Below, piece after piece: positions 1-42,656 of a stretch of 43,379 nucleotides of DNA. The notes under the pieces were generated by a model. That model did not search any database. It saw nothing but the letters and a program-made list of their open reading frames with translations, and was not told the DNA's origin. Positions within the stretch are counted from its first letter, which is position 1; each line of letters opens with the position of its first letter. The position numbers and the translations under genes are program-made. The stretch is taken from assembly GCA_937958645.1 (NCBI GenBank), contig CALGNI010000043.1, forward strand, positions 1 to 43,379, given 5' to 3'. The stretch is from Candidatus Absconditabacterales bacterium. Its GTDB lineage: Bacteria > Patescibacteriota > Gracilibacteria > Absconditabacterales > Absconditicoccaceae.

Positions 1-142
1 TACAGAAGTTCGAAGAAAGTTCAAAAAAATGAATTGGCTTGTTTGCTATCATTTCCTCGAGGAGGCAATTCTTCACTGCTCGAAAAAAGATAAAAAAACA
101 ATCTTTCTATCTCTTTTCGAAGTAAATCATCACCTCCTTAAT
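1..142 (+). repeat. Structured leader repeat, copy 1
   Basis: This stretch recurs almost unchanged at 10616-10755 (a few substitutions and one indel), and both copies lie just upstream of a large gene. Visible structure: a palindrome TCCTCGAGGA, an SD-like AGGAGG (about 60-66), a 12-bp hairpin whose arms CGAAAAAAGATA and TATCTCTTTTCG flank an A/T-rich loop, and then ATCACCTCCTTAA, which resembles the 3' tail of 16S rRNA. AGGAGG can pair with CCTCCT to close the whole element. An ORF from ATG 29 runs through into the downstream gene, but in copy 2 the equivalent frame closes at a TAA, so I read the element as non-coding. It may begin before the window. Confidence 0.75.
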
Positions 143-163
143 TCCTTTGCATACAAAGAATTT

Positions 164-3100
164 ATGGCAAATCGTGCACCAAATAACCCTAACCAACCAA
201 CTAATCCAGAGAATCCTACTGGATCATCTTTTAATGTAAGTAAATCATTTCAAGAACTGGAGACTACCTTAAATGCTGGGAATCTTGCGTCGGAAATAAT
301 CGAAAAGAAAAAAGCATTATTTTTAGAATGACTTACTTCAAATATTTTTTCACATGCTACTTATCCTGAATTTAAGTCAGAGCAAGATGCAGCCTGAAAT
401 ACGGCATTAGAAATAAAAGATTATCATGCGCGACTTGCAACAAAAGATGCAGAATTTAAGAGGATTTATGATTCAGTTCAATCCTTAAATGCTGCCGGTT
501 TATCTCTTAGCGATGTTAATGCGGTTGGTCTTGGTAGTTTAGTTTCTTCTGCATCTCAAGAGGTGACTGTTAACAATACCAAATTAGTTTCACTCAAGAA
601 GCATTTGATCGACAAGTCATATAGATCTACGATCTGATGATATATTCAAACGATGAAACAAAAACTATGAGCCGATGTGATCTGAGCAGGAGAGTATGCA
701 AAAATGGAATCTTTTATTATGAAGTTTTTGGATCCAAGTACAGGTACGGTGACTTTGCCTTGAGACAAGAAAATTACTTTCAAATCAAAGGATCTTTCTT
801 TTCAGAAAGTAAATGGAAACAGTATTGCCAACTTGGATCAGTATAGTCTTTCAGGAGATACTTGATATGGCTGAAACCTCTTTGTACCACATTTTGTGAT
901 TGACGCTGAACGCACTGACCCAGAAATCGCTAAACTTCTGATGTCATGAAATGGTACTGTTGCTAATACTTGATCTACAGTGAATTTCACTGATAAGCAT
1001 CTAAAGTTTTTGCCCTATGTATTTATGAGTGCGGCATTAGGTGATGCAGCTGAAGCTACCAAAAAAATTAGAGCTTCGTTGGGATTAGCCCCGATACAGC
1101 TTGAGAGTTCTCAAGATTGAGTTGATCGTGAGATGGAGTGAATAGATACAGTTCCAAACCACAAAGAATTTGCAGAGAGATTTAATAATCTTTCTTGAGA
1201 TGCTTGAGTGAGATTTATAGACGGGAAACTAGATCCTCAAGAATCGTTTCTGTATTTTAATGATTTTGGGCAAGGAATTCATGATCTCCCTGGTGGTGGT
1301 AATAACCGAGTAAAGGCTTCTTTGGTTCAGGAGTGAGATAATATTAGAGTAACTCTACAAGATAATACCGATTTTGATATGACAGTGGGTAAGAAAAGTT
1401 TCACCTATCCTCTCAATGGATCAAGTATGGATTTTTTGATCGATAATCGAGGAGGAAGCGATAATATAATCAAAGCCAAACCAAGTGCCTCTCTCAAGGA
1501 TTTGACAGAATCATTATGATATCTTTGAGGATCAAATAATCTTTGATGATTTGATGATGAAGCTTTGCAAAGCGCACGGTCTGGATGACATGTATATAAT
1601 GGAGATGAAACAAGATCTCATGATGAGAGTATGAGAAATATTTCTGATATCACGTATTTATGATCCCCTTCATGAGGTAACGAGTATACCTTTTATAATG
1701 TAGATCAATGATCTGATTCAGTAACCGTGAGTTATAGTAATCGATCCAAAACCATGGATTATACTACCTTTGCCTTATTTGTTTTAGATAAAGGTTTATT
1801 GCCTTTTTCTGATCATGAGTATGAAAATGCAACCAAGAAGATTGAAGAAATTGAGCCTGGATCAGTCTATAAAAACGGATTTTGGAAACGAATTTCCATT
1901 TGATCAATCGGAGCAATGTTGAAGTGAATCCCTGATGCATTTATGGCTACGCTCAAAAAAGATGAAGAACTTAGAACTGCGGAAGCAGAAGTGTGGCTTT
2001 ATGAAAAACTATGATTTATCCCATGAGTAGATAAGTATGATGCACAGAAGAAATTAGATGGCTTGGTCTTATGAGAAATGGAACAAAGAAAGAATCAACT
2101 CTTGGGTATGGATGTCGAAGGTAACTCTGCTACCTCTGAGAAGAAAGAATGAATAGCTGAAGTTGATAAAGATTTTCAGAATCTTAATTTTGGAAATAAG
2201 TCACATATGCGTACCTTGTGAGGTGATTTTTTGTATGTGTTGGAGCTAAATGAACTTTATGAATGACCTCTATCGAAGTATTCATCTGAACATATGTGGG
2301 TGAAGAAATTGTTGTGACCAAAGCATTATGCTGCCTTTAGAAAAGAATATCACAAAGAATATGCTGCGATTAGAAATCTTCCTGAAGGATCTGCTGATAG
2401 AAGAGATGCATTGGTAAAAATGGAACTCAATTATATTGCTAAACACACCAAAGAAGATAAAGAGTTGCAAAGAGTGTATGGAACGAAGTTTTATAAAACG
2501 ATTGAGGATTATACAGAAGAGAAAATCGGTACTACTGCGAAAGGGGTGAAGGAACATTCAGTCAATTGGCCATTTTCTCAAGTATTTGGTGCAGCGAAAG
2601 CTTCATTAGGAAAACTTAGTTCTGCTAAGTTTATTGGATTTTTGGAGGTGGCTTTATCTAAAGTAGATACTAAAGCGCAAAGAGATTTGGTGAATAAGTT
2701 GATTTTGCAGTATTATGTTACATGAACAAATAGTAAAGCAATTAAAAATAATGCCGATAGACTTGAAGATATGGGGAGAAGATATGGTAATCCTTTGTTG
2801 AAGTTAGCGAATAATATTAATGCTTCCAGAATTATTGTTAATCTTGCTGATCAACTTACCAATCGTGGGAAAGCATTATCCAAGACCTTATCATACTGAG
2901 GGCCAACTCCCCAAAATGGGGAATTTATTGAAATGCATAATTATAGTTTAGGGGGAGAGGATGGTAAAGGATCTCATAAAGATAGATTGAAGCAAAGTGA
3001 ATCTTGGCGAAAGAAAAATGGAAAAACATTTACCAACGCTATATATTTCAATTCAACTGATATTTTCAAAAAAATAGCAAGCCTGAAATCTACATCAAGC

Positions 3101-3784
3101 ACTGATGAGGAAAAAACACAACTTCAAGACATCAAGTATTTTTATGAATTTGCTGTATTAGGAAATGATGGTCCTACTTTATGAGATAATGAAAGTGCAC
3201 ATCAAAGTTCACCGCTATATTCTGATAGTATTATGAATTTGACTGGTGGTGCTTTCAAAGATTTAATGTTCAAAGGGTTTAATAAGTCAAATTGAACCTT
3301 TAGTGATAGAAATACGAAGTTGTTGTGGAGTAATCTCTTGTCGAAAATCACTAACTTGGATGCTCAAATTTCTAGCTGATCCAAAAATGAAGAAGAACAT
3401 CTCTTGCACTTTGTTACCAAAAAATATATTGATTTCTTCCAAGGGGAAATGACTACATGAGATTTCAATTGATTTAAAAGAGCATTGAAAAAAGGAAATT
3501 GAGAGGGCGCAAAAATTGCTATTGAAAATACCGCCTTTAGAAAATGATATTACCAAGATGAGTCTATGGAGAAAACATTTTTAGCTTTTGCTGAATTTTT
3601 TAAGAAACATGCAAAAACAATAAATGAAAATTATGCTTCAGGTGGTATGATGACTTCAGTTTTTAATGATTGATGATCAAATTGATCTAAAAATACTAAA
3701 TGGGAAACAGAGATTAAGGATCGTGTGAGAAAATGAGTTAAAAGTGACGAAGACGATGAGTATGGAGATGAGACCTATTATTAG
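164..3784 (+). CDS. Large orphan cytoplasmic protein, 1206 aa
   Basis: A single frame with about 50 in-frame TGA (Gly) codons, closed by TAG. I do not recognise the family. The N-terminus is Asn/Pro-rich (MANRAPNNPNQPTNPENP) with no signal peptide or membrane segment. The body is mixed charged and helical, with Lys/Glu-rich stretches around residues 650-900, and the C-terminus is acidic (SDEDDEYGDETYY). ATG 164 is chosen because the upstream in-frame ATG at 29 lies within the leader repeat, whose second copy does not keep this frame open. A TACAAA box sits 6 nt before ATG 164 and no SD is present. A terminator follows the stop. In size and style it resembles the 769-aa protein at 35101, though I see no clear homology between them. 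Confidence 0.8.
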
Positions 3785-18031: not shown

Positions 18032-20869
18032 ATGAGCAAAGATACAAGATTTTCTCCGGATTTTACCTGAGTAGCAAAAGATAAAAGTTACTATGCACTC
18101 ACGATGTTTCCCTATCCATCTGGTTCTGGATTGCACTGCGGTCATGCTTCTGTTTTCACGATCAATGATGTGGTAGCCAGATACAAACGTATGCAATGAT
18201 TTGCCGTGTTAAACCCTTTTGGTTTCGATGCTTTTGGTCTTCCTACAGAAAACTATGCGATTCAGCAGGGAAAGCCTGCTCGTGAAGTAACCGACATCAA
18301 TAAGCAGCATTTTCTAGATCAAGTGGAAGCATTGAATATGAGTTTTGATATGGAAAGAATTATTGATACCTCAGAACCTGAGTATTATAAATGGACGCAA
18401 TGGATTTTTTCAAAACTCTATGAGGCGGGACTAGCATTTAAAGACACGCTCTGGGTAAATCGATGTCCTTCATGTATGACGGTGCTAGCAAATGATCAAG
18501 TGGTTGATGGTGCTTGTGAACGCTGTAAGTCTGAGATCATCCAAAAGAAACATCCTCAGTGGTTTATTAAGATCACAGACTATGCTGACAGACTTATTGC
18601 GGACTTAGATACTGTAGACCGACCAGAAGAAACTAAAATAGCGCAGAGAAATCGAATTGGGAGATCGGAGGGAGCTGAGATTGAGTTTGAGGTGGCCCTC
18701 ACCCCCCAGCCCCCTCTCCCAACCACTCCTCGTGCCTCGTCACTAGGAGAGGGGGAGGAAGTGAAAATCACCTGTTTCACGACACGTCCTGATACGATCT
18801 ATGGAGTGACTGCGATTGTACTCGCTCCAGAGAATACACTCTTGGATGACATGCTTGATGATGAACACACAACGAAAGTACATGAATACAGACAAACTAC
18901 CTTGGCCAAAACTGCAGTCCAAAGACAGAAAGACCTCAAAGAAAAAACTTGAGTAAATTCTGGTTTGTTTGCAATACACCCACTCACACAAAAAGAAATC
19001 CCTATCCGATACGCTGACTATGTACTAGCTGGATATGGTTCGTGAGCGGTGATGAGTGTGCCTGCACATGATGCGAGAGATAAGGAGTTTGCGGAGAAGT
19101 TTGGGTTGGAGGTAGTTCAGGTGATTAGGCCATTGGTTTCAAATACTGATTTTGATTCAATTGAATTAGAAAGAATTTGATGATACTGTATGATTAAACA
19201 TGAGTCTGAAGAAATGTATTTGGTGGTAAAAGCAGATTGAAAAATAATGTTTCCTTGATGAGGAATTGATGAATGAGAATCTATTCAGCAGTGAGCTGTA
19301 AGAGAAGTAATAGAAGAGACATGATATAAGAATATCGAAATAAAATCTAAGTTGATCGAGATGAATGCAAAGCATTATTTCAAAAAGATTGGGTGATGAG
19401 CACTAACAAATGCTACTATCTTTAAAGCTAGTTTAATGAACGATGAAAATAACTGATTGTCACTAACAAAAGATGAAAAGAAATCCGGAATGCAATATAT
19501 TTGGATGTCTGAACAGCAGATTGTTTCTGAAAATAAAGATGTAGTCTGGGAGTATCTGTTTAATGTTCTTTTGTGAAAAGTAACTATTCGCGAATGAACG
19601 CTTATGAATTCATGAGAATTCAATTGATTATCTCACGTTGACGGACAAAAGATGATAACGGCTCATCTTGAAGATCTATGAGTAGGAAGAAAAAAAGTGA
19701 CATACAAGCTACGTGACTGGTCTGTAAGTAGACAGAGATATTGGGGGAGTCCGGTGCCGATTTGGTATGATGAAGAAGGTAATGATCACCTCGTTCCAGA
19801 ATCTGAACTCCCCGTAGTGCTTCCTTTAGATCTAGAAGATTATAAACCCACAGGAAAGAGTCCATTGGAGGATCATCCTACGTTTCCGAAGTATGGTGAG
19901 AATGGAACCCGCGAATGCGACACCCTGGACACCTTCATGTGTAGCTCGTTCTATTTCCTTCGTTTTCCTGATGCGCACAATGATGAGGAATTGATTCGTA
20001 AAGAGTTGGCTGAGAGTTTGTTGCCGGTGGATTTCTATAGTGGAGGGAAAGAGCATACAGTCGGTCATTTACTATACTCTCGCTTTATCCACAAATTTTT
20101 GTTTGATCAATGATATGTGGATAGCCCAGAGCCTTTCAAGAAATTGATTCATCAAGGAATGGTGCTTGGATCTGATGGGCGCAAGATGGGGAAGAGATAT
20201 GGTAATGGAATAGATCCTACTGAAGTGGTCAATAAGTACGGTGCAGATGCAGTAAGGACCTATATGATGTTTATGTGACCAGTAGAAGCCGATAAACCAT
20301 GGAGTGATACGGCATTAAATGGTGTAGCTAAGTTTTTGAAAAGAGTGGAGAGACTTATGGATGATGGGTTTATATGAGATGAGAATGATGAAATAGAATC
20401 AGCATTAAATATAGCAATAAAATGAGTTACAGAAGATATAGAAAAACTAAAGCTAAATACTTGTATCTCTAAGTTGATGATATTAAATAATTTTGTTCAC
20501 ATGAAGAATGCAGGATCTAATAAATTAAATATATCAAAGAGACAACTATTAATAATAGCTCAATTATTAGCTCCATTTGCTACTGAATTAGCAGAAAAAA
20601 TTTGGAAAAACATGTGATGAGAATGAGATGTTCATTTCAGTCTTCGACCGATTTATGATGAAACTAAAATCATTGAAGCTGCAATAAATATTCCCGTACA
20701 AATTAATGGTAAAGTCAGGTGATTTCTAGTTGCTGATACATGACTAACTGAAGATGAGGTTGTTAGATGAGCAATGACATTAGAAAATATAGAGAAACGA
20801 TTGGAATGAAAAGACCTAGTGAAGATTATTTGGGTCCAGGATAAGATTTTGAATTTGATTGTGAAATAA
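18032..20869 (+). CDS. leuS: Leucyl-tRNA synthetase with an inserted Nudix domain
   Basis: 945 aa. It charges tRNA-Leu with leucine in the cytoplasm. The Rossmann core has the HIGH motif as HCGH in [13 protein letters not shown], a zinc site (CPSC and CERC), the editing (CP1) motifs [12 protein letters not shown] and [27 protein letters not shown], and KMSKS as KMGKR. Between residues about 375 and 515, where other bacterial LeuRS have a short link from VPAHD-RD to VNSGEF, there is an extra domain with a complete Nudix box (GGIDEGE, seven residues, REVIEETGY). A GC-rich palindrome is also translated at residues 222-243. The length exceeds the usual 810-870 aa by about the size of the insert. 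The C-terminal domain ends ILNLIVK. Confidence 0.96.
18693..18760 (+). repeat. GC-rich palindromic element translated inside leuS
   Basis: CCCTCACCCCCCAGCCCCCT opens it, and the arms CCCCCTCTCC (18710-18719) and GGAGAGGGGG (18746-18755) can pair. Its composition is far from that of the A/T-rich surroundings. It stays in frame as [20 protein letters not shown]. The sequence type resembles short GC-rich palindromes dispersed in many bacterial genomes. Confidence 0.75.
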
Positions 20870-34456: not shown

Positions 34457-34948
34457 ATGAAGAAGATATTTCTTAGTTTATGAGTGATGCTTTTCTCTAG
34501 TATTCTTGTGTGATGTTCATGAGGTTGAGCTACTGGTGATGATGGAACGCCATCTTGAGATGCTAAAGTGTGTAATGGTACTGATTGTTTCAATGTTCAA
34601 CTTGCATCAACCACTGCGCAACTTCAGCAATGACTGATGTGAGTAGAAGAAATGGCTGATGATGCATGAATGTTGTTCGTTTTTCAAAACCCATGAATCC
34701 ATGAATTTTGGATGAAAAATACTCTCATTCCCTTGGATATGATTTGGTTGGATGAAGAAGGAGAAGTGCTTTATGTAAAAGAATACGCTCCACCATGTTC
34801 ACCGGAAGACTCAGAAGCTAATGATTGTCAGCTTTTTGGGCCTCCAGAAGGAACGCTCGCATCGTATGTCCTTGAAGTAAATGCAAACAAGACCAGAGAA
34901 GTAGGAATCTATGAAGGAGTGAAGTTGGATTTGTTAAATGTGAAATAG
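34457..34948 (+). CDS. DUF192-family lipoprotein
   Basis: 163 aa. A lipoprotein signal peptide with lipobox LVGC (the Gly is TGA) is followed by a Gly/Ser-rich linker. The DUF192 domain has LASTTAQLQQGLMGVEEM, AGMLFVF, HEFWMKNTLIPLDMIWLDEE, and YVLEVNA. These are the family hallmarks (R-GLM-R, G-LF-F, FWM-NT--PLD). The family's role is unknown. A pair of Cys (CSPEDSEANDC) is probably an external disulfide. TATAAA lies 5 nt before the ATG. Confidence 0.93.
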
Positions 34949-34989
34949 GTAAGTTAGTAGGGAGGAATTCCCCCCTCCATTATCAATGT

Positions 34990-35020
34990 AATCATGGCGG
35001 GAGACCGCTGTGATTTTTTT
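34990..35020 (+). terminator. Terminator after the DUF192 gene
   Basis: AATCATGGCGG-GAGA-CCGCTGTGATT followed by T-run. An additional GGAGG-CCTCC hairpin lies just upstream (about 34960-34978). Confidence 0.8.
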
Positions 35021-35100
35021 GTGCTGGAATTTTGCTTAATAATCGGGTATATGTATACTATATGGTGATGAATATTTTGTTTACAGTGAGTTATATAATA

Positions 35101-37410
35101 ATGGACCCAGAAAAAATAATAGCAAATGAGTATGAAGGAGGCAACGTAAATTTTTCTGAAATCTTAAAAAATAAAACAAATCTGTCTTTGGGTGAAATAA
35201 AATTTGAGAATAAAGAAACAGAATCAGCAGCTAGTGAAATTCTGTACCAATTCAAAAGAGATGTAAATAGCTTTATTGCATCAAGTTTTACACGTGAATG
35301 GCCTGATTTTCATATTCCTTATGTAGATTATAATCAAGAGAAAAAGTACTCGCGAAGACGAGATAAAAGAATGACTCCTATTGATCCGAAAATATTTAAT
35401 ACTCAAAAGATAAGAAGAACCATTATCAAAGAAATCAAAGAATTGGCTGCAAGAGATCCATTAGCATGAAAGACCATGAAAGACGTACGAGAAACTATTC
35501 AAGGAGCTGCAAAGGATATTTTGGAGGCTTGAAAAGCTATTGATGTGAGACATAAAGTTCAATGATTCGATACAAATTCGTTTGGTTCTATGTTGAGTGA
35601 AGACAAAAGAACAACTTTTGACAAAGTTTGACCAGCTCGTTGATCAGATTATTTGCAATGTCTCTATAAATTATCAGGGTCAAGAAAAATGGAGTACTTC
35701 AAGGAAAATAGCGAATGAACGTTCTTAGAGATGACCCTAGCAGGAAAGAAATTTTTCCACAAAACATTTCTTAGATCTATCGAATTTATGAATGACTGGG
35801 ATCCTGTTTTTGATAAAAGCAAGGTCTTTGATCAATCTGTGCTTGATTCGATGCAAGACCGTGATTATATGACATTGAAAACAGAAGATTTTTTGAGAAT
35901 GATTCATCAGTTGTTCAGAGATCTTCCAAAAGATATGTCTAAGCAAGATAAGTGAGAGGTGAAGAAACATAGAGGTGGATTCTTGAATCCATTTACTGGA
36001 TTTTTGTATATCAACACAATTTTGGATGAAGAAGAATTGAAAGAATATAGTGAATACCTAAATGCGTGATTAGATGAATTTCCATGATTCAAAAAGATTG
36101 AAGAAGAATTTGGAATTACGATCCATAAAAAGTTTAGATTAAAAGAGTTGAAATCGATTATGCTAAAGTTGATGTGAGGAGCAGATGTCACTACTTTTTC
36201 CGATTTGTTTTGATTTCGTTTGAAATATTTTCCTAAACCTCCATTGGATGAAAACGGGAGGCTATCAGAAGAAGAGGTGAAAATCATTGCTAGATTGCAA
36301 TGAGCTCTAGCTCAATATCTAGCGGAACGTTTTAAATTGGCTGACCTTACGTATCAGATTCCTAGCAAAGGTGAAAGTGATGTCCAATGATTCGAGATGA
36401 GTACAACTTGAATTTTTGCTTCTTTGAAGACAAATGAAAAAAATAGAGAACTTATATGAGACGAGCTAGCTTCACATCATCCAGACATGAATTTTGTACG
36501 AAAGGAGAAGGAGAGATCAGTAAGAGCGAAATGACAAAATGACTGATTTAGTGCAAGTAAAACAAAAGCTATTTTCATCTCTGACAAAGGGTATTCATAT
36601 GGTGTTGAAGGAGAAATAGTGCCATGGATCAATGCAAATAATGCTGGTAGAGCACATCCAGAATTTTTCTTAGTACAAAAGATTTTGTCGTTGATTTGTA
36701 GAATCAGAGTAGTGTGTACAATCAATGAAATGAAAGTGCTCGTGAGAAACGCTTTGGAAAGAATGTATGAGCAACAAGATAAAGAAATTACATCAAATGA
36801 AATAGATCCGGAGATTCAGCCAGAATTAGCTGATGCATTAGTGGAGGAAGTTGCAAAAATGAATGCTAGCAATCAGTTATTTACACTCAGTAATGGTGAA
36901 AAGATTAGAATCAAAGATTTTTTGGCAGATGATGAATCCTCAAAAAGACTTATGAATATTCTCGTAGCTGATGTGTTAACCTGAGATCTGCGTAGTAAGA
37001 AACCTAAGTTTGCTCCATTTTTACATATGAGTGATCTAGATACTAATACGAAGGAGGAATTACAATTCGCAACAAAGAATAAGAGAGCAGAGAAATTTAC
37101 TATTGATGTAGATATGAATTGAGAAATAGTCACGAGCTTCAAAAATGTTTTTTTCACCTCTAGTAATATCAATAATAGCCTTATTACTGGAAATGTTCCT
37201 TGTAATGCTTTTGTTTTAACGCCTACTAAAGGAAGCAAGAAAGAGTTCTACGATGTCAATACGGTGTATGATGCAGATTCTAGTTGAAAAGCACCTCATA
37301 CACAGTTTAAGCAGAATGCGAATTTATCATGAATGTACTCCTGATCTGATGGAGTCAAAAACACCATTTCTAAAGATTTATGAAATAATTTCACGAATAA
37401 AGCTGAGTAA
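35101..37410 (+). CDS. Large orphan cytoplasmic protein, 769 aa
   Basis: I do not recognise a family. It begins MDPEKIIANEYEGG and is charged, helical and soluble throughout, with no signal or membrane segment. Notable segments are basic EKKYSRRRDKRM (near 80), a Lys/Asp-rich centre, EVKKHRGGFLNPFTGFLYIN, and a cysteine pair VQKILSLICRIRVVC around 535. The end is Asn/Gly/Ser-rich. About 26 in-frame TGA. In-frame Mets upstream (35032, 35062, 35068) would add a hydrophobic leader, so start 35101 is a choice. A promoter-like TTGCTT-16-TATACT ends at 35059. Confidence 0.75.
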
Positions 37411-39272: not shown

Positions 39273-42200
39273 ATGAAAAACATTTTTCTATGATTACTTT
39301 GACTTGTTTTGGCTATCCTAGCAGGACATCAAGCATATTTATCAGGGATAGCATCGTATGCACCTGCATTGGCTGAACAGAAAGGACTTGTATTAACTCA
39401 ATGATTCACCGATGTCGATGGTGATGGAGTTGATGATGTTTCTGATAACTGTATTGGTGTATACAATCCAAATCAAGCAGATTCAGATAATGATGGATTT
39501 GGTGATGCTTGTGATCCTACAGGAAATTGATGAAACACGTGAAATACATGAAACACATGAAATACTTCACCTTGTGGATCAGGATGAGATACCGATGGTG
39601 ATGGTATTTGCGATGTAGTAGATAATTGTGTATGAGTATATAACCCTGGACAACAAGATTCAGACTATGATGGTGCAGGTGATGCCTGTGATACTCCATC
39701 AACCAATGGAACATGTGGATGGTCCTTAGGTTCATGTACAAGCGGTAGTCCAGCATCAATTCATGATACTTCTTGTGGTCAAGCAGATACATGGAAATGT
39801 ACTGGGTCAAATGGATGAAGTACTGATCATTGTTCAGTGCCAGACCCATGTCCTTCAACTAACGGACAATGTGGAAGCTCATATGGATCTTGTACTTCTG
39901 GTCAAGCGACAAATCATAATGATACCAGCTGTGGTCAAGCAGATACATGGTCATGTAATGGGTCAAACGGATGATCAAACGATTATTGTTCAGTTCCTGA
40001 TCATTGCCCATCGACCAATGGACAATGTGGAAGCGCTTACTGAGTTTGTGTATCAGGTCAAGCAGCAAATCATAACGATACCAGCTGTGGACAGGATGAT
40101 ACATGGTCATGTAATGGATCAAACGGATGATCAAACGATTATTGTTCAGTGCCAGATGTCTGTGCTGTCCATCCAGAAAACGGAAATTGTTGACGAGATT
40201 TTTGATCATGTCATACCGGAACACCGACTAATATGAATAACACAGCATGTGGACAAGACGATACTTGGTCTTGTGGTTGATCAAATGGATGATCGAGTGA
40301 TTATTGTTCAATTGCTGATACTTGCCAAGTGCAACCAGAAAACGGATCTTGTTGAACAAGTTTTGGATCTTGTACTTTATGAAATGCTGGTAATCAGAAC
40401 AATACTGCATGTGGACAAGATGATACATGGGATTGTTTTGGGACTAATGGATGAACTGATGCATGGTGTATGATTCCTGATGTTTGTACTGTAGTTCCTA
40501 CGTATGGAAACTGTGGATCTTCATTTGGTTCATGTACATCATGATTAGCAATCAACTTGAACAATTCATCATGTGGACAGTCAGATACATGGACTTGTGC
40601 TTGAGCGAATGGAGGAAGTTCAGATTCTTGTTCAGTTCAAGATATTTGTGCACCTACACCAACTCCACAACCACCAGTATACGTACCACAACCACCTGTA
40701 TATATTCCTACACCAGCTCCAACTCCAGTAACCTGAATTTGTGCCTCATCATTTGGAAAATGTTTATGATGAACACCAAGAGGACTCAATGATACTGTAT
40801 GTGGATCAGAAGATACATGGACTTGTGCTTGAGCAAACGGTTGAGCATCAGATTCATGTTTTGTACTAGATCTTTGCCAAGATCCTTGTGCACAAAGATG
40901 AGGTGATGAAGATAATGATGACGTATGTACTTTTGATGATAATTGCCCGACGCAATACAATCCATCTCAAGATGATGATAATGGATATCAAGATAACTCA
41001 TGAAAAGGTGATGCTTGTGAAACTGTTCCTAGCTGTCTCAATCTCTGAGGAGATTCAGATGACGATGGAGTATGTGACTTAGAAGATAATTGTCCTTATG
41101 TATCTAACGCTAATCAAAGAGATAGTTATGGAGATATAAGAGGAGATGCATGTGAAGAACAAGAAATCATAAAAGAATGTGTCCATGGCGATACGAGAGC
41201 TTGTTCAGGTAATTCACTAGGAGTTTGTGATGCTTGATTCCAAAATTGTATTAACGGATATCGAGATGATTACTGTGAGGCAGTGGTGACTGCTAGTACA
41301 GAAATCTGTGATGGAAGAGATAACGACTGTGATGGAAGCACTGACGAAGGTGGTGTTTGTGAACCAGTATGTGTTCCAAGAAACGAAGTATGTGATGGTA
41401 GAGATAATGATTGTGATGGAAGAGTGGATGAAGGAAATGTCTGTGAACCAGTATGTGTTCCTAGAGCAGAAACTTGTGATGGTAGAGATAATGACTGTGA
41501 TGGAAGTATAGATGAAGGAAGTGTTTGTGATGCTTGTGCAGGTAAATGAGGAGATGCTGATGACGATGGAGTATGTGGACTTCTTGATAACTGCCCAAAT
41601 GAATACAACCCAAGACAAGAAGATAGAAATGGATACTTGGATAATAGAGGAAATGGAGATGCATGTGAAGTGCTTCCTGTGGCTCGTGTAAAAAGAGCTG
41701 TTTCTCCATCATATAGATGTATAGATTCTGATCGTGATAGTGTGTGCGACGATGAAGATCATTGTCCTTCACAGTTCGGATTGATCAATAATTATGGATG
41801 TCCTAGTGTAGGATTCAATCATTATCAACCGATTGATTCAGGTTGTTCGACTAGATGATGAGATTCAGATAGAGACGGAATATGCGATTTCTCAGATATT
41901 TGTCCTAATATTCCTGGTATAGCGATCAATGGAGGATGTGAAGGAGATAACTTCTGTCCGTATGGATATGTAGACGATGGAAATGGAGGTTGTGGAACAC
42001 GATGGAATACATGAGGACAAGGACTTGGATCAGTAGGATGAGGAACCACCAAGAGTGGATATGAATGTAAAGCATGAACAGCTCCGAACGGATACGGAGG
42101 ATGTACAAAGCTTGATGATGCTTTTCGAGGTTCTGCTGCAAATGGAGCAATCACTGCATGACAAGCTGCGATCCCACTATGGAAATCATCAACGCAAACA

Positions 42201-42656
42201 GGAAATACATGATACTCTAGCGGTATTGGTGGAGGATATTCATCTACCAACTACGGGAAATCATGATCAAAAACCACCAATGAAGGATACGCATGTAAAG
42301 CATGAACTTCAGCAAATGGTTACGGAGGATGTTCAGCATCACCATATCAAAGTTCAACTAACGTGAGTTCATCATACGCAAAGATCCAATATGCAAACTC
42401 ATTACCAAGTCACAATTTCCTAGCTGATGGAAGAAGAAACCCAACAGGAACTTCAGGATCTACTAATACAGGATACAACTGTAAAGCATGAACATCACCA
42501 AATGGTTTCGGATGATGTTCACTAGATCAACAATATCAAAAGTTTGATAGTTCAGGGCAAACACTATATAGATGGAATGGATGATTGTGAGGAAGCAATA
42601 GTTATGTGAAGTTTGATAGTAGTGGGCAGACTCCTTATAGATGGAATGGGAGCTAG
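39273..42656 (+). CDS. Giant secreted Cys-rich repeat surface protein, 1127 aa
   Basis: A signal peptide (about 4-36) leads to the secreted part. Layout: (1) two thrombospondin type-3-like calcium repeats ([20 protein letters not shown], then [13 protein letters not shown]); (2) seven repeats of about 51 aa (39705-40870) with the core CG-x-DTW-C-GxNGG and NGxCG-SFGSC; (3) a Pro-rich spacer ([19 protein letters not shown]); (4) more DDDG-CD---DNCP repeats; (5) three DGRDNDCDG units, as in MopE-type metal-binding motifs; (6) three GY-CKAGT--NGYGGC units; (7) two [13 protein letters not shown] units at the end. Extremely rich in Cys, Asp, Gly and Asn. Very many Gly are TGA. Likely an adhesin or cell-surface fibre. 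Calcium binding and disulfides are inferred. Confidence 0.88.
39705..40870 (+). repeat. Seven ~150-bp repeats in the surface gene
   Basis: Protein-level repeats of about 51 aa (the last lacks its first part). They begin at [11 protein letters not shown], then at [81 protein letters not shown] and, after the Pro spacer, ICASSFGKC. Copies two and three are also close at DNA level. The others have diverged, so the array is a mix of recent and older duplications. Confidence 0.9.

Follow-up and report, generated by a model that had tools for sequence, protein, structure and literature searches.

A Nudix domain nested in the editing domain of leucyl-tRNA synthetase in a Candidatus Absconditabacterales bacterium

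Few enzymes are as conserved as the aminoacyl-tRNA synthetases. The editing domain of leucyl-tRNA synthetase (LeuRS), Pfam family PF13603, has been described as a domain that is always an insert, and that account reports no events in which it serves as a host (PMC13114784). Diadenosine tetraphosphate (Ap4A) is a product of synthetases and is broken down by Nudix hydrolases (PMC10148737), and palindromic elements of Rickettsia lie in frame within genes (PMC10969869). We analyzed a stretch of 43,379 nucleotides from a Candidatus Absconditabacterales bacterium (GCA_937958645.1, contig CALGNI010000043.1, forward strand; hereafter the window) in which a LeuRS gene carries a complete Nudix domain inside its editing region. 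We found no description of a Nudix domain nested in LeuRS in the literature searched, the scope of which did not include subscription papers or preprint servers.

The nested Nudix domain and its host

We refer to the place of the insert in the LeuRS editing domain as site B. The features of the gene, all on the + strand, are as follows.

18032-20869, +: LeuRS gene with the nested Nudix domain, 945 amino acids (aa), an open frame under code 25
18779-18796, +: editing motif TTRPDT, residues 250-255, intact
19058-19081, +: editing motif VPAHDARD, residues 343-350 (AHD at 345-347, Asp347 included), intact
19142-19588, +: insert at site B, about residues 371-519, delimited by comparison with insert-free relatives
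19235-19522, +: match to PF00293 (NUDIX), residues 402-497, 39.2 bits (cut-off 21.1)
19259-19327, +: Nudix box, residues 410-432, every residue of the pattern present
20183-20197, +: KMGKR, a variant of the KMSKS signature, residues 718-722

The host scores 815.7 bits with TIGR00396 (leuS_bact), for which the cut-off is 548.4, and it is the only match to this family above the cut-off in its genome, which is 91.5% complete. The AlphaFold model of the whole protein has a predicted local distance difference test score (pLDDT) of 87.9 and superposes on Thermus thermophilus LeuRS (1obc) with Z 44.6 and a root mean square deviation (rmsd) of 4.5 Å over 720 residues. The protein thus has the whole body of bacterial LeuRS (TIGR00396; T. 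thermophilus 1h3n and 1obc, Escherichia coli 4arc), together with the TTRPDT and AHD motifs. It differs from these enzymes in having about 149 additional residues within the editing domain and KMGKR for KMSKS, and it is without some 58 residues that precede KMSKS in T. thermophilus LeuRS (residues 580-637 of that chain are unmatched). The HIGH signature is also a variant, LHCGH, and both variant signatures are common to some close relatives; KMGKR replaces KMSKS in loci L125, L153, L154, L156, and L157 as well.

The initial annotation placed a complete Nudix domain within the LeuRS editing region, and the matches above cut-off to PF00293 and TIGR00396 in the code 25 translation bear this out. 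The insert begins 24 residues past the editing residue Asp347. The span first given for it, 19154-19580 (residues 375-517), has the right place and is slightly shorter than the extent found by comparison with insert-free relatives. The flanking LeuRS motifs are intact, as had been claimed, although the right flank reads LMNSGEFNGLS and not VNSGEFNGLS. The box (G410-x5-E416-x7-R424-E425-V426-I427-E428-E429-T430-G431-Y432) is the exact fit to Gx5Ex7REUxEExGU that had been reported.

Modelled alone, the insert adopts a Nudix fold (pLDDT 90.9). The closest solved fold to the domain model is the Ap4A hydrolase 3i7u (Z 15.7, rmsd 2.1 Å, 127 residues), followed by the Ap6A hydrolase Ndx1 (1vc9, Z 15.5), 2azw (15.3), and MutT1 (14.9), and the top rows are tied within one unit of Z. 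Foldseek placed 2azw and 3i7u at the top, and 2azw was also the best match (48.1 bits) in a sequence-profile search against solved structures. The 11 NCBIfam matches to the domain are all to Nudix families and all lie far under cut-off. In the window genome as a whole there are 16 Nudix matches, 2 of them in synthetases (LeuRS and the isoleucyl enzyme, IleRS) and 8 in frames of 114-211 aa; no free member of the LeuRS-type Nudix group was found in this genome at E 1e-10. The only anti-phage defence matches were to a single candidate-defence model that carries no description, PDC-S07, on the Nudix part of LeuRS (20.5 bits) and of IleRS (51.9 bits).

The composition of the insert is distinctive, with a GC content of 0.30 against 0.40 in the remaining gene and TGA at 12 of 15 glycine codons, compared with 19 of 57 elsewhere in the gene (Fisher p 0.0025). 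Such a composition points to a long stay in a lineage that reads TGA as glycine, and the history of the insert may perhaps differ from that of the gene body. Fresh import from a standard-code donor is unlikely because of the 12 in-frame TGA codons. We rejected an intein or other self-splicing element, since the insert matches only Nudix families in Pfam and NCBIfam and contains no splicing or homing-endonuclease domain. There are no terminal inverted repeats at the edges of the window domain (the best inverted match scored 13, which was equalled by 18 of 200 controls), and we found no transposon ends around the 12 other site-B Nudix inserts tried (of 41).

Distribution, probable exchange, and probable release of the Nudix domain

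Site B was scored as empty when fewer than 110 residues lay between residues 358 and 532 of P0001, and some sequences scored in this way have longer links than usual (52 extra residues in L154). A scan of the contig collection with the window LeuRS yielded at least 585 candidates, of which the best 80 were taken, which biases the frequencies; among the 77 loci compared from these 80, 31 had a Nudix domain at site B, 2 had another insert, and 44 had none. In a search of relatives, 48 of 58 other genomes were compared, and these gave 10 Nudix domains, 2 DUF559 domains, 2 serine hydrolases, 1 unidentified insert, and 33 empty sites. Altogether, a site-B Nudix domain is present in 42 of 126 LeuRS sequences in this search-biased set (the window included; L035 and L163 are identical), spread over several lineages of Patescibacteria and one clade of Bacilli. 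A further 25 locus ids were kept out of the LeuRS tree because they were duplicates or covered incomplete genes; among these, L149 (G047) spans site B and has no insert there.

We also searched a sample of 145 genomes of the phylum using a profile built from 41 of the site-B domains. Nineteen of the 20 matches of at least 94 bits lie in LeuRS, that of the window among them, and the remaining one, in G121, is a short copy that lies outside LeuRS and has decayed. One more LeuRS (G195) scored 64.8 bits in the same sample, and the other Nudix matches listed scored at most 72.3 bits; because profile A2 was made from LeuRS inserts, including that of the window, the scores of such inserts are partly circular. 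Among 145 genomes of one Bacilli family, 32 matches reached at least 128 bits, with 27 in LeuRS (26 checked, plus L023), 2 in frames of 937 and 931 aa, and 3 in stand-alone genes. We therefore rejected the idea that the group is strictly confined to LeuRS, since G338 has a free member of 161 aa, G121 a decayed copy, and three genomes a stand-alone fusion.

When mapped on a LeuRS core tree built without the insert, the presence of the Nudix domain requires at least 19 changes. In the Nudix tree, a node of 95/86 holds 44 rows, consisting of all 42 site-B domains, the Nudix domain found at another LeuRS site in L153, and one very long free row; the 42 site-B domains as a single clade are not rejected (approximately unbiased test, p-AU 0.272). 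Both trees have long branches and many open forks, which limits the grouping of the Nudix domains. The two trees conflict at several points: the domains of L139 and L158, from the family of the window organism, group with those of L011 and L015, those of L022 and L030 fall away from the other Bacilli, L042 groups with L152, and L018 groups with L036. Among the Bacilli, the number of nonsynonymous changes per site (dN) is far higher in the Nudix domain than in the LeuRS body for the pairs L300/L319 (0.757 vs 0.126), L302/L319 (0.776 vs 0.139), and L311/L321 (0.938 vs 0.157), whereas for L302/L304 it is only 0.200 vs 0.103. We read the conflict between the trees, together with far-diverged Nudix domains on nearly equal LeuRS bodies, as domain exchange; from the sequences, Nudix domains appear to have been exchanged between LeuRS genes, presumably by recombination in the flanks.

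The full Nudix box is kept in 36 of the 42 site-B sequences, and the editing motifs TTRxDT and AHDxRD are kept in all 42 (by eye). Because the editing motifs are present throughout, we rejected the possibility that the Nudix domain replaces a lost editing function. The TTR motif is lost in at least five LeuRS sequences of the same class that have no Nudix domain (L115, L118, L131, L141, and L148, by eye), which suggests that these may have lost editing. In the listed pairs of Bacilli LeuRS in which there was no exchange, the ratio of nonsynonymous to synonymous change (omega, dN/dS) of the Nudix domain is mostly about 0.1-0.5, somewhat faster than that of the LeuRS body; these are simple estimates from the pairs listed, with dS near saturation.

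Members of the group found outside LeuRS lie at the following positions.

L317:1165-2067: stand-alone gene, editing-domain remnant with Nudix
L318:1237-2079: stand-alone gene, editing-domain remnant with Nudix
L320:1423-2292: stand-alone gene, editing-domain remnant with Nudix
L292:6394-8490: neighborhood of the free Nudix gene of G338, which adjoins a Peptidase_S66 gene, with another Nudix gene near and a serine hydrolase gene about 2 kb off

The stand-alone genes belong to three Bacilli genomes (G370, G348, and G343), in each of which a separate gene of 276-278 aa is made up of a portion of the LeuRS editing domain surrounding a Nudix domain (in L317, tRNA-synt_1_2 at 29.9 bits and Nudix at 46.9 bits). 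These genes have lost TTRPDT and the AHD aspartate and have one stretch deleted, and every residue of their Nudix box is present. Between pairs of them, omega ranges from 0.07 to 0.10 over the Nudix part and from 0.16 to 0.35 over the remainder. Because the editing part is decayed, the box is kept, and site B is empty in the LeuRS of all three genomes, the Nudix domain most likely came out of LeuRS and has been retained in its own right. This ability to survive outside LeuRS, in a gene of its own, speaks against participation in editing as such. The L317 stand-alone gene adjoins a gene for a CYTH-domain protein.

Other guests in LeuRS, IleRS, and ValRS

LeuRS, IleRS, and the valyl enzyme (ValRS) of Patescibacteria carry recurring guests at several sites, namely Nudix, serine hydrolase, HAM1, HAD, histidine phosphatase, and nucleotidyltransferase domains. 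Pfam matches within LeuRS confirm the serine hydrolase PF06821, PDDEXK_3, Y1_Tnp, HAM1, and Nudix at a second site; an ASCH domain in L138 falls just under its cut-off (19.8 vs 21.2). Several proteins have more than one guest. The LeuRS of L159 has two Nudix stretches and that of L216 has Nudix and HAM1, and the 1795-aa LeuRS of G061 (L218:677-6061) has HAD, HAM1, a LeuRS-type Nudix domain, and a nucleotidyltransferase at different sites by Pfam, perhaps with a second HAM1-like piece (by eye), which makes up to five guests, four of them with Pfam support. The IleRS of L277 contains serine hydrolase, Nudix, and His_Phos_1 domains, and the ValRS of L278 contains HAD, serine hydrolase, and His_Phos_1 domains; HAD and Nudix domains also occur in L217, which we identify as a ValRS by eye and from its match to PF10458. 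In the window genome, IleRS (L165:1-3225, G000:C14) has a Nudix domain before the editing motif (by eye) and His_Phos_1 in its C-terminal part. The ValRS of the same genome (L166:2125-5178, G000:C87) is longer by about 110 residues, judged by eye, close to the counterpart of LeuRS site C.

In 286 genomes of the phylum, PF06821 gave 149 matches, 20 of them in open frames of at least 900 aa. The hosts of these 20 are 17 LeuRS, 1 IleRS, 1 ValRS, and 1 glycosyltransferase (19 of 20 in synthetases); the other 129 lie in frames shorter than 900 aa and are mostly free genes. In the serine hydrolase inserts the nucleophile serine is retained, as is the histidine wherever the sequence extends that far (by eye). 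Among the HAM1 matches listed for the same sample, two lie in frames of at least 900 aa, both of them LeuRS (L254, G103), and frames of 766 and 759 aa with HAM1 show no likeness to LeuRS, IleRS, or ValRS. The 766-aa frame (L255:2258-4555, G332) is a HAM1-IMPDH fusion, and L256 (G192) has a similar start. None of the 150 listed matches to a control family, PF00383, lies in a frame of at least 900 aa, the longest being 520 aa. The HAM1 and PF00383 figures cover the matches listed, from which the weakest are excluded, and most of the synthetase-nested PF06821 matches are weak, so the PF00383 control is imperfect and the figures point to a strong host bias and not to an exact rate.

Within the genus of the window organism, site B holds Nudix, DUF559 between inverted repeats, or nothing. 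G002 has DUF559 at site B (93.9 bits) in a LeuRS of 1324 aa that also carries nucleotidyltransferase-like and alpha/beta hydrolase inserts at other sites, and site B is empty in G004; we found no LeuRS in G001 and G003. At the point matching P0001 residue 623, the LeuRS gene of G004 (L126, G004:C66) contains about 1.1 kb of additional DNA, and its frame seems to be broken there. The DUF559 insert of G002 is flanked by inverted repeats matching at 24 of 28 bases, which beat 196 of 200 controls, and a site-B DUF559 in G033 has similar repeats (23 of 27 bases, beating 194 of 200 controls); in both cases the controls can overlap the true site. No inverted-repeat ends were found around the three serine hydrolase inserts tried (site B of L137 and L150, site A of L041). 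The window LeuRS has a repeat of this kind at site A.

18695-18760, +: palindrome-type repeat at site A of the window LeuRS, translated in frame as residues 222-243

This repeat is 87% identical over 77 bases to a copy at the same place in G002, where the same family flanks the site-B DUF559, and there is one weak second copy only in the window genome. Its hairpin is no better than those of shuffled sequences (z -0.33), and residues 228-237 are modelled at pLDDT below 50.

Elsewhere in the window, two very large frames (29-3781, 1251 aa, and 34825-37407, 861 aa, under code 25) have no Pfam match at E 0.001, and a frame of 1127 aa (39273-42653), perhaps a surface protein, contains metal-binding repeats of the MopE type and falls just short of the cut-off for thrombospondin type 3.

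Interpretation and comparison with known systems

We put at about even the chance that the window Nudix domain is an autonomous, probably active metal-dependent pyrophosphohydrolase carried on LeuRS, which acts on a small-nucleotide substrate outside editing and belongs to a group that spread by exchange with synthetases as hosts. The LeuRS would charge and proofread with its own intact sites, and the Nudix domain, seated in a loop of the editing domain, is predicted from its sequence to hydrolyze nucleotide pyrophosphates with the aid of a metal, apart from editing. Among small nucleotides, a dinucleoside polyphosphate or a comparable adenylylated by-product would be the most plausible substrate. 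The LeuRS-associated group may have spread through domain exchange between LeuRS genes, as part of a wider habit by which the class Ia editing synthetases of Patescibacteria (LeuRS, IleRS, and ValRS) would host interchangeable small enzymes. The architecture, its recurrence and conservation, the conflict between trees, the host bias, and the escape with a dismantled editing domain are read from the data; we infer the catalytic activity, the substrate, the benefit of tethering to a synthetase, and the exchange by recombination. An adenylylated by-product is a first guess, held weakly, because synthetases make Ap4A, Nudix hydrolases degrade it, and Ap4A and Ap6A hydrolase folds lead the list of structural neighbors. 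The clean-up hydrolase of the initial annotation, acting for example on diadenosine polyphosphate, is compatible with the catalytic residues kept in most sequences and with the near but tied Ap4A and Ap6A folds; nothing was found in support of its other suggestion, recognition of a cap-like group on RNA.

Several observations weigh against this interpretation. As the structural neighbors are tied and the NCBIfam matches are far under cut-off, Ap4A is only a lean. The window domain is divergent (identity at most 30%, end branch 2.15) and is missing the NR of the HKxxNR motif that is common in the LeuRS-type group, and site B is free of any large insert in 33 of the 48 relatives compared. The box is broken in 6 of the 42 site-B domains (L012, L018, L029, L033, L036, and L157), and that of L029 has an omega of 1.08 relative to L017, which indicates that the domain can decay in place. 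The intact free member in G338 (124.7 bits) indicates that the tie to LeuRS is not absolute. Some guests at the same sites, namely DUF559, PDDEXK_3, Y1_Tnp, and nucleotidyltransferase-like domains, are nucleic-acid or transfer enzymes, and a clean-up function does not account for them.

More tentatively, and with less than even confidence, LeuRS, IleRS, and ValRS of Patescibacteria and some Bacilli may be docks for defined small hydrolases (Nudix, serine hydrolase, HAM1, HAD, and histidine phosphatase) that sanitize by-products or inhibitors made or met at the synthetases and move between genes by recombination at fixed positions, with occasional release as separate enzymes. The strongest rival, which we regard as rather unlikely, is that the guests are passengers with no link to charging, small genes inserted in frame that persist in tolerant surface loops of large essential synthetases and are hard to lose without killing the host gene, their substrates being unrelated to tRNA charging. 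The very mixed nature of the guests, some of mobile-element type (Y1_Tnp, PDDEXK_3, and the DUF559 between inverted repeats in G002 and G033), would fit such passengers, as would the turnover of guests within the genus of the window organism and the several sites per protein in LeuRS such as that of G061. However, the guests are a recurring set and not a random draw, the serine hydrolases are strongly biased toward these three hosts, the control deaminase family is missing from comparable frames among its listed matches, and members of the Nudix group turn up repeatedly in LeuRS from different phyla and at two positions in that enzyme.

It is improbable, in our estimation, that the nested hydrolase is a resistance module against natural LeuRS inhibitors, adenylate mimics or nucleotides of the agrocin 84 type, which it would destroy (the title of structure 3zgz names the toxic moiety of agrocin 84 together with LeuRS). 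A patchy and exchangeable distribution is what a resistance trait would show, and the free Nudix gene of G338 lies beside a gene of the S66 family, which includes MccF, a cleaver of aminoacyl-adenylate mimics, with the serine hydrolase gene nearby; against this, S66 enzymes are common and the argument rests on that one neighborhood. A structural role, with the Nudix fold as a spacer or a contact for tRNA or protein and catalysis irrelevant, would explain the broken boxes, and yet the great majority of the site-B domains keep the full box and the stand-alone genes keep it while their editing part decays, so we consider this role very improbable. We give practically no weight to an artefact of assembly or frame, in favor of which nothing was found. 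The frame is open under code 25, the fold is well predicted, and 41 other LeuRS sequences from other genomes carry a Nudix domain at the same place, which excludes chance or misassembly, refutes an artefact as far as the architecture is concerned, and agrees with the initial annotation. Neither a missing PF00293 match nor absence of the insert from relatives together with an assembly breakpoint was found, yet many relatives are without the insert.

Up to several enzymes can lie within one essential synthetase, with guests that differ between sister species, and this looks like an undescribed arrangement of interchangeable modules nested in charging enzymes. If the guests act on products or inhibitors of the synthetases, there would be unrecognized chemistry around tRNA charging in a large and little-cultured group of bacteria. 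G370, G348, and G343 offer a natural experiment in which Nudix function is separated from charging and editing.

The solved Nudix hydrolases (3i7u, 1vc9, and 2azw) share with the window domain the fold and the full Nudix box, at 19-21% identity, and differ in that the window domain is nested in a synthetase. The palindromic elements of Rickettsia (PMC10969869) resemble the site A repeat and the DUF559 flanks of G002 in being mobile palindromic DNA that is translated within proteins, a likeness that we infer; unlike those elements, the guests described here are whole enzymes, and the window Nudix domain is without such flanks. NCBIfam NF040702, an IleRS with a GNAT domain, is also a class Ia synthetase with an extra enzyme domain, with a different guest and a different host. 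The PF13603 domain of PMC13114784 is the same domain as that in the window LeuRS and is itself inserted in a synthetase; in the present case another enzyme is nested in it, which contradicts the account of that paper, in which it is never a host.

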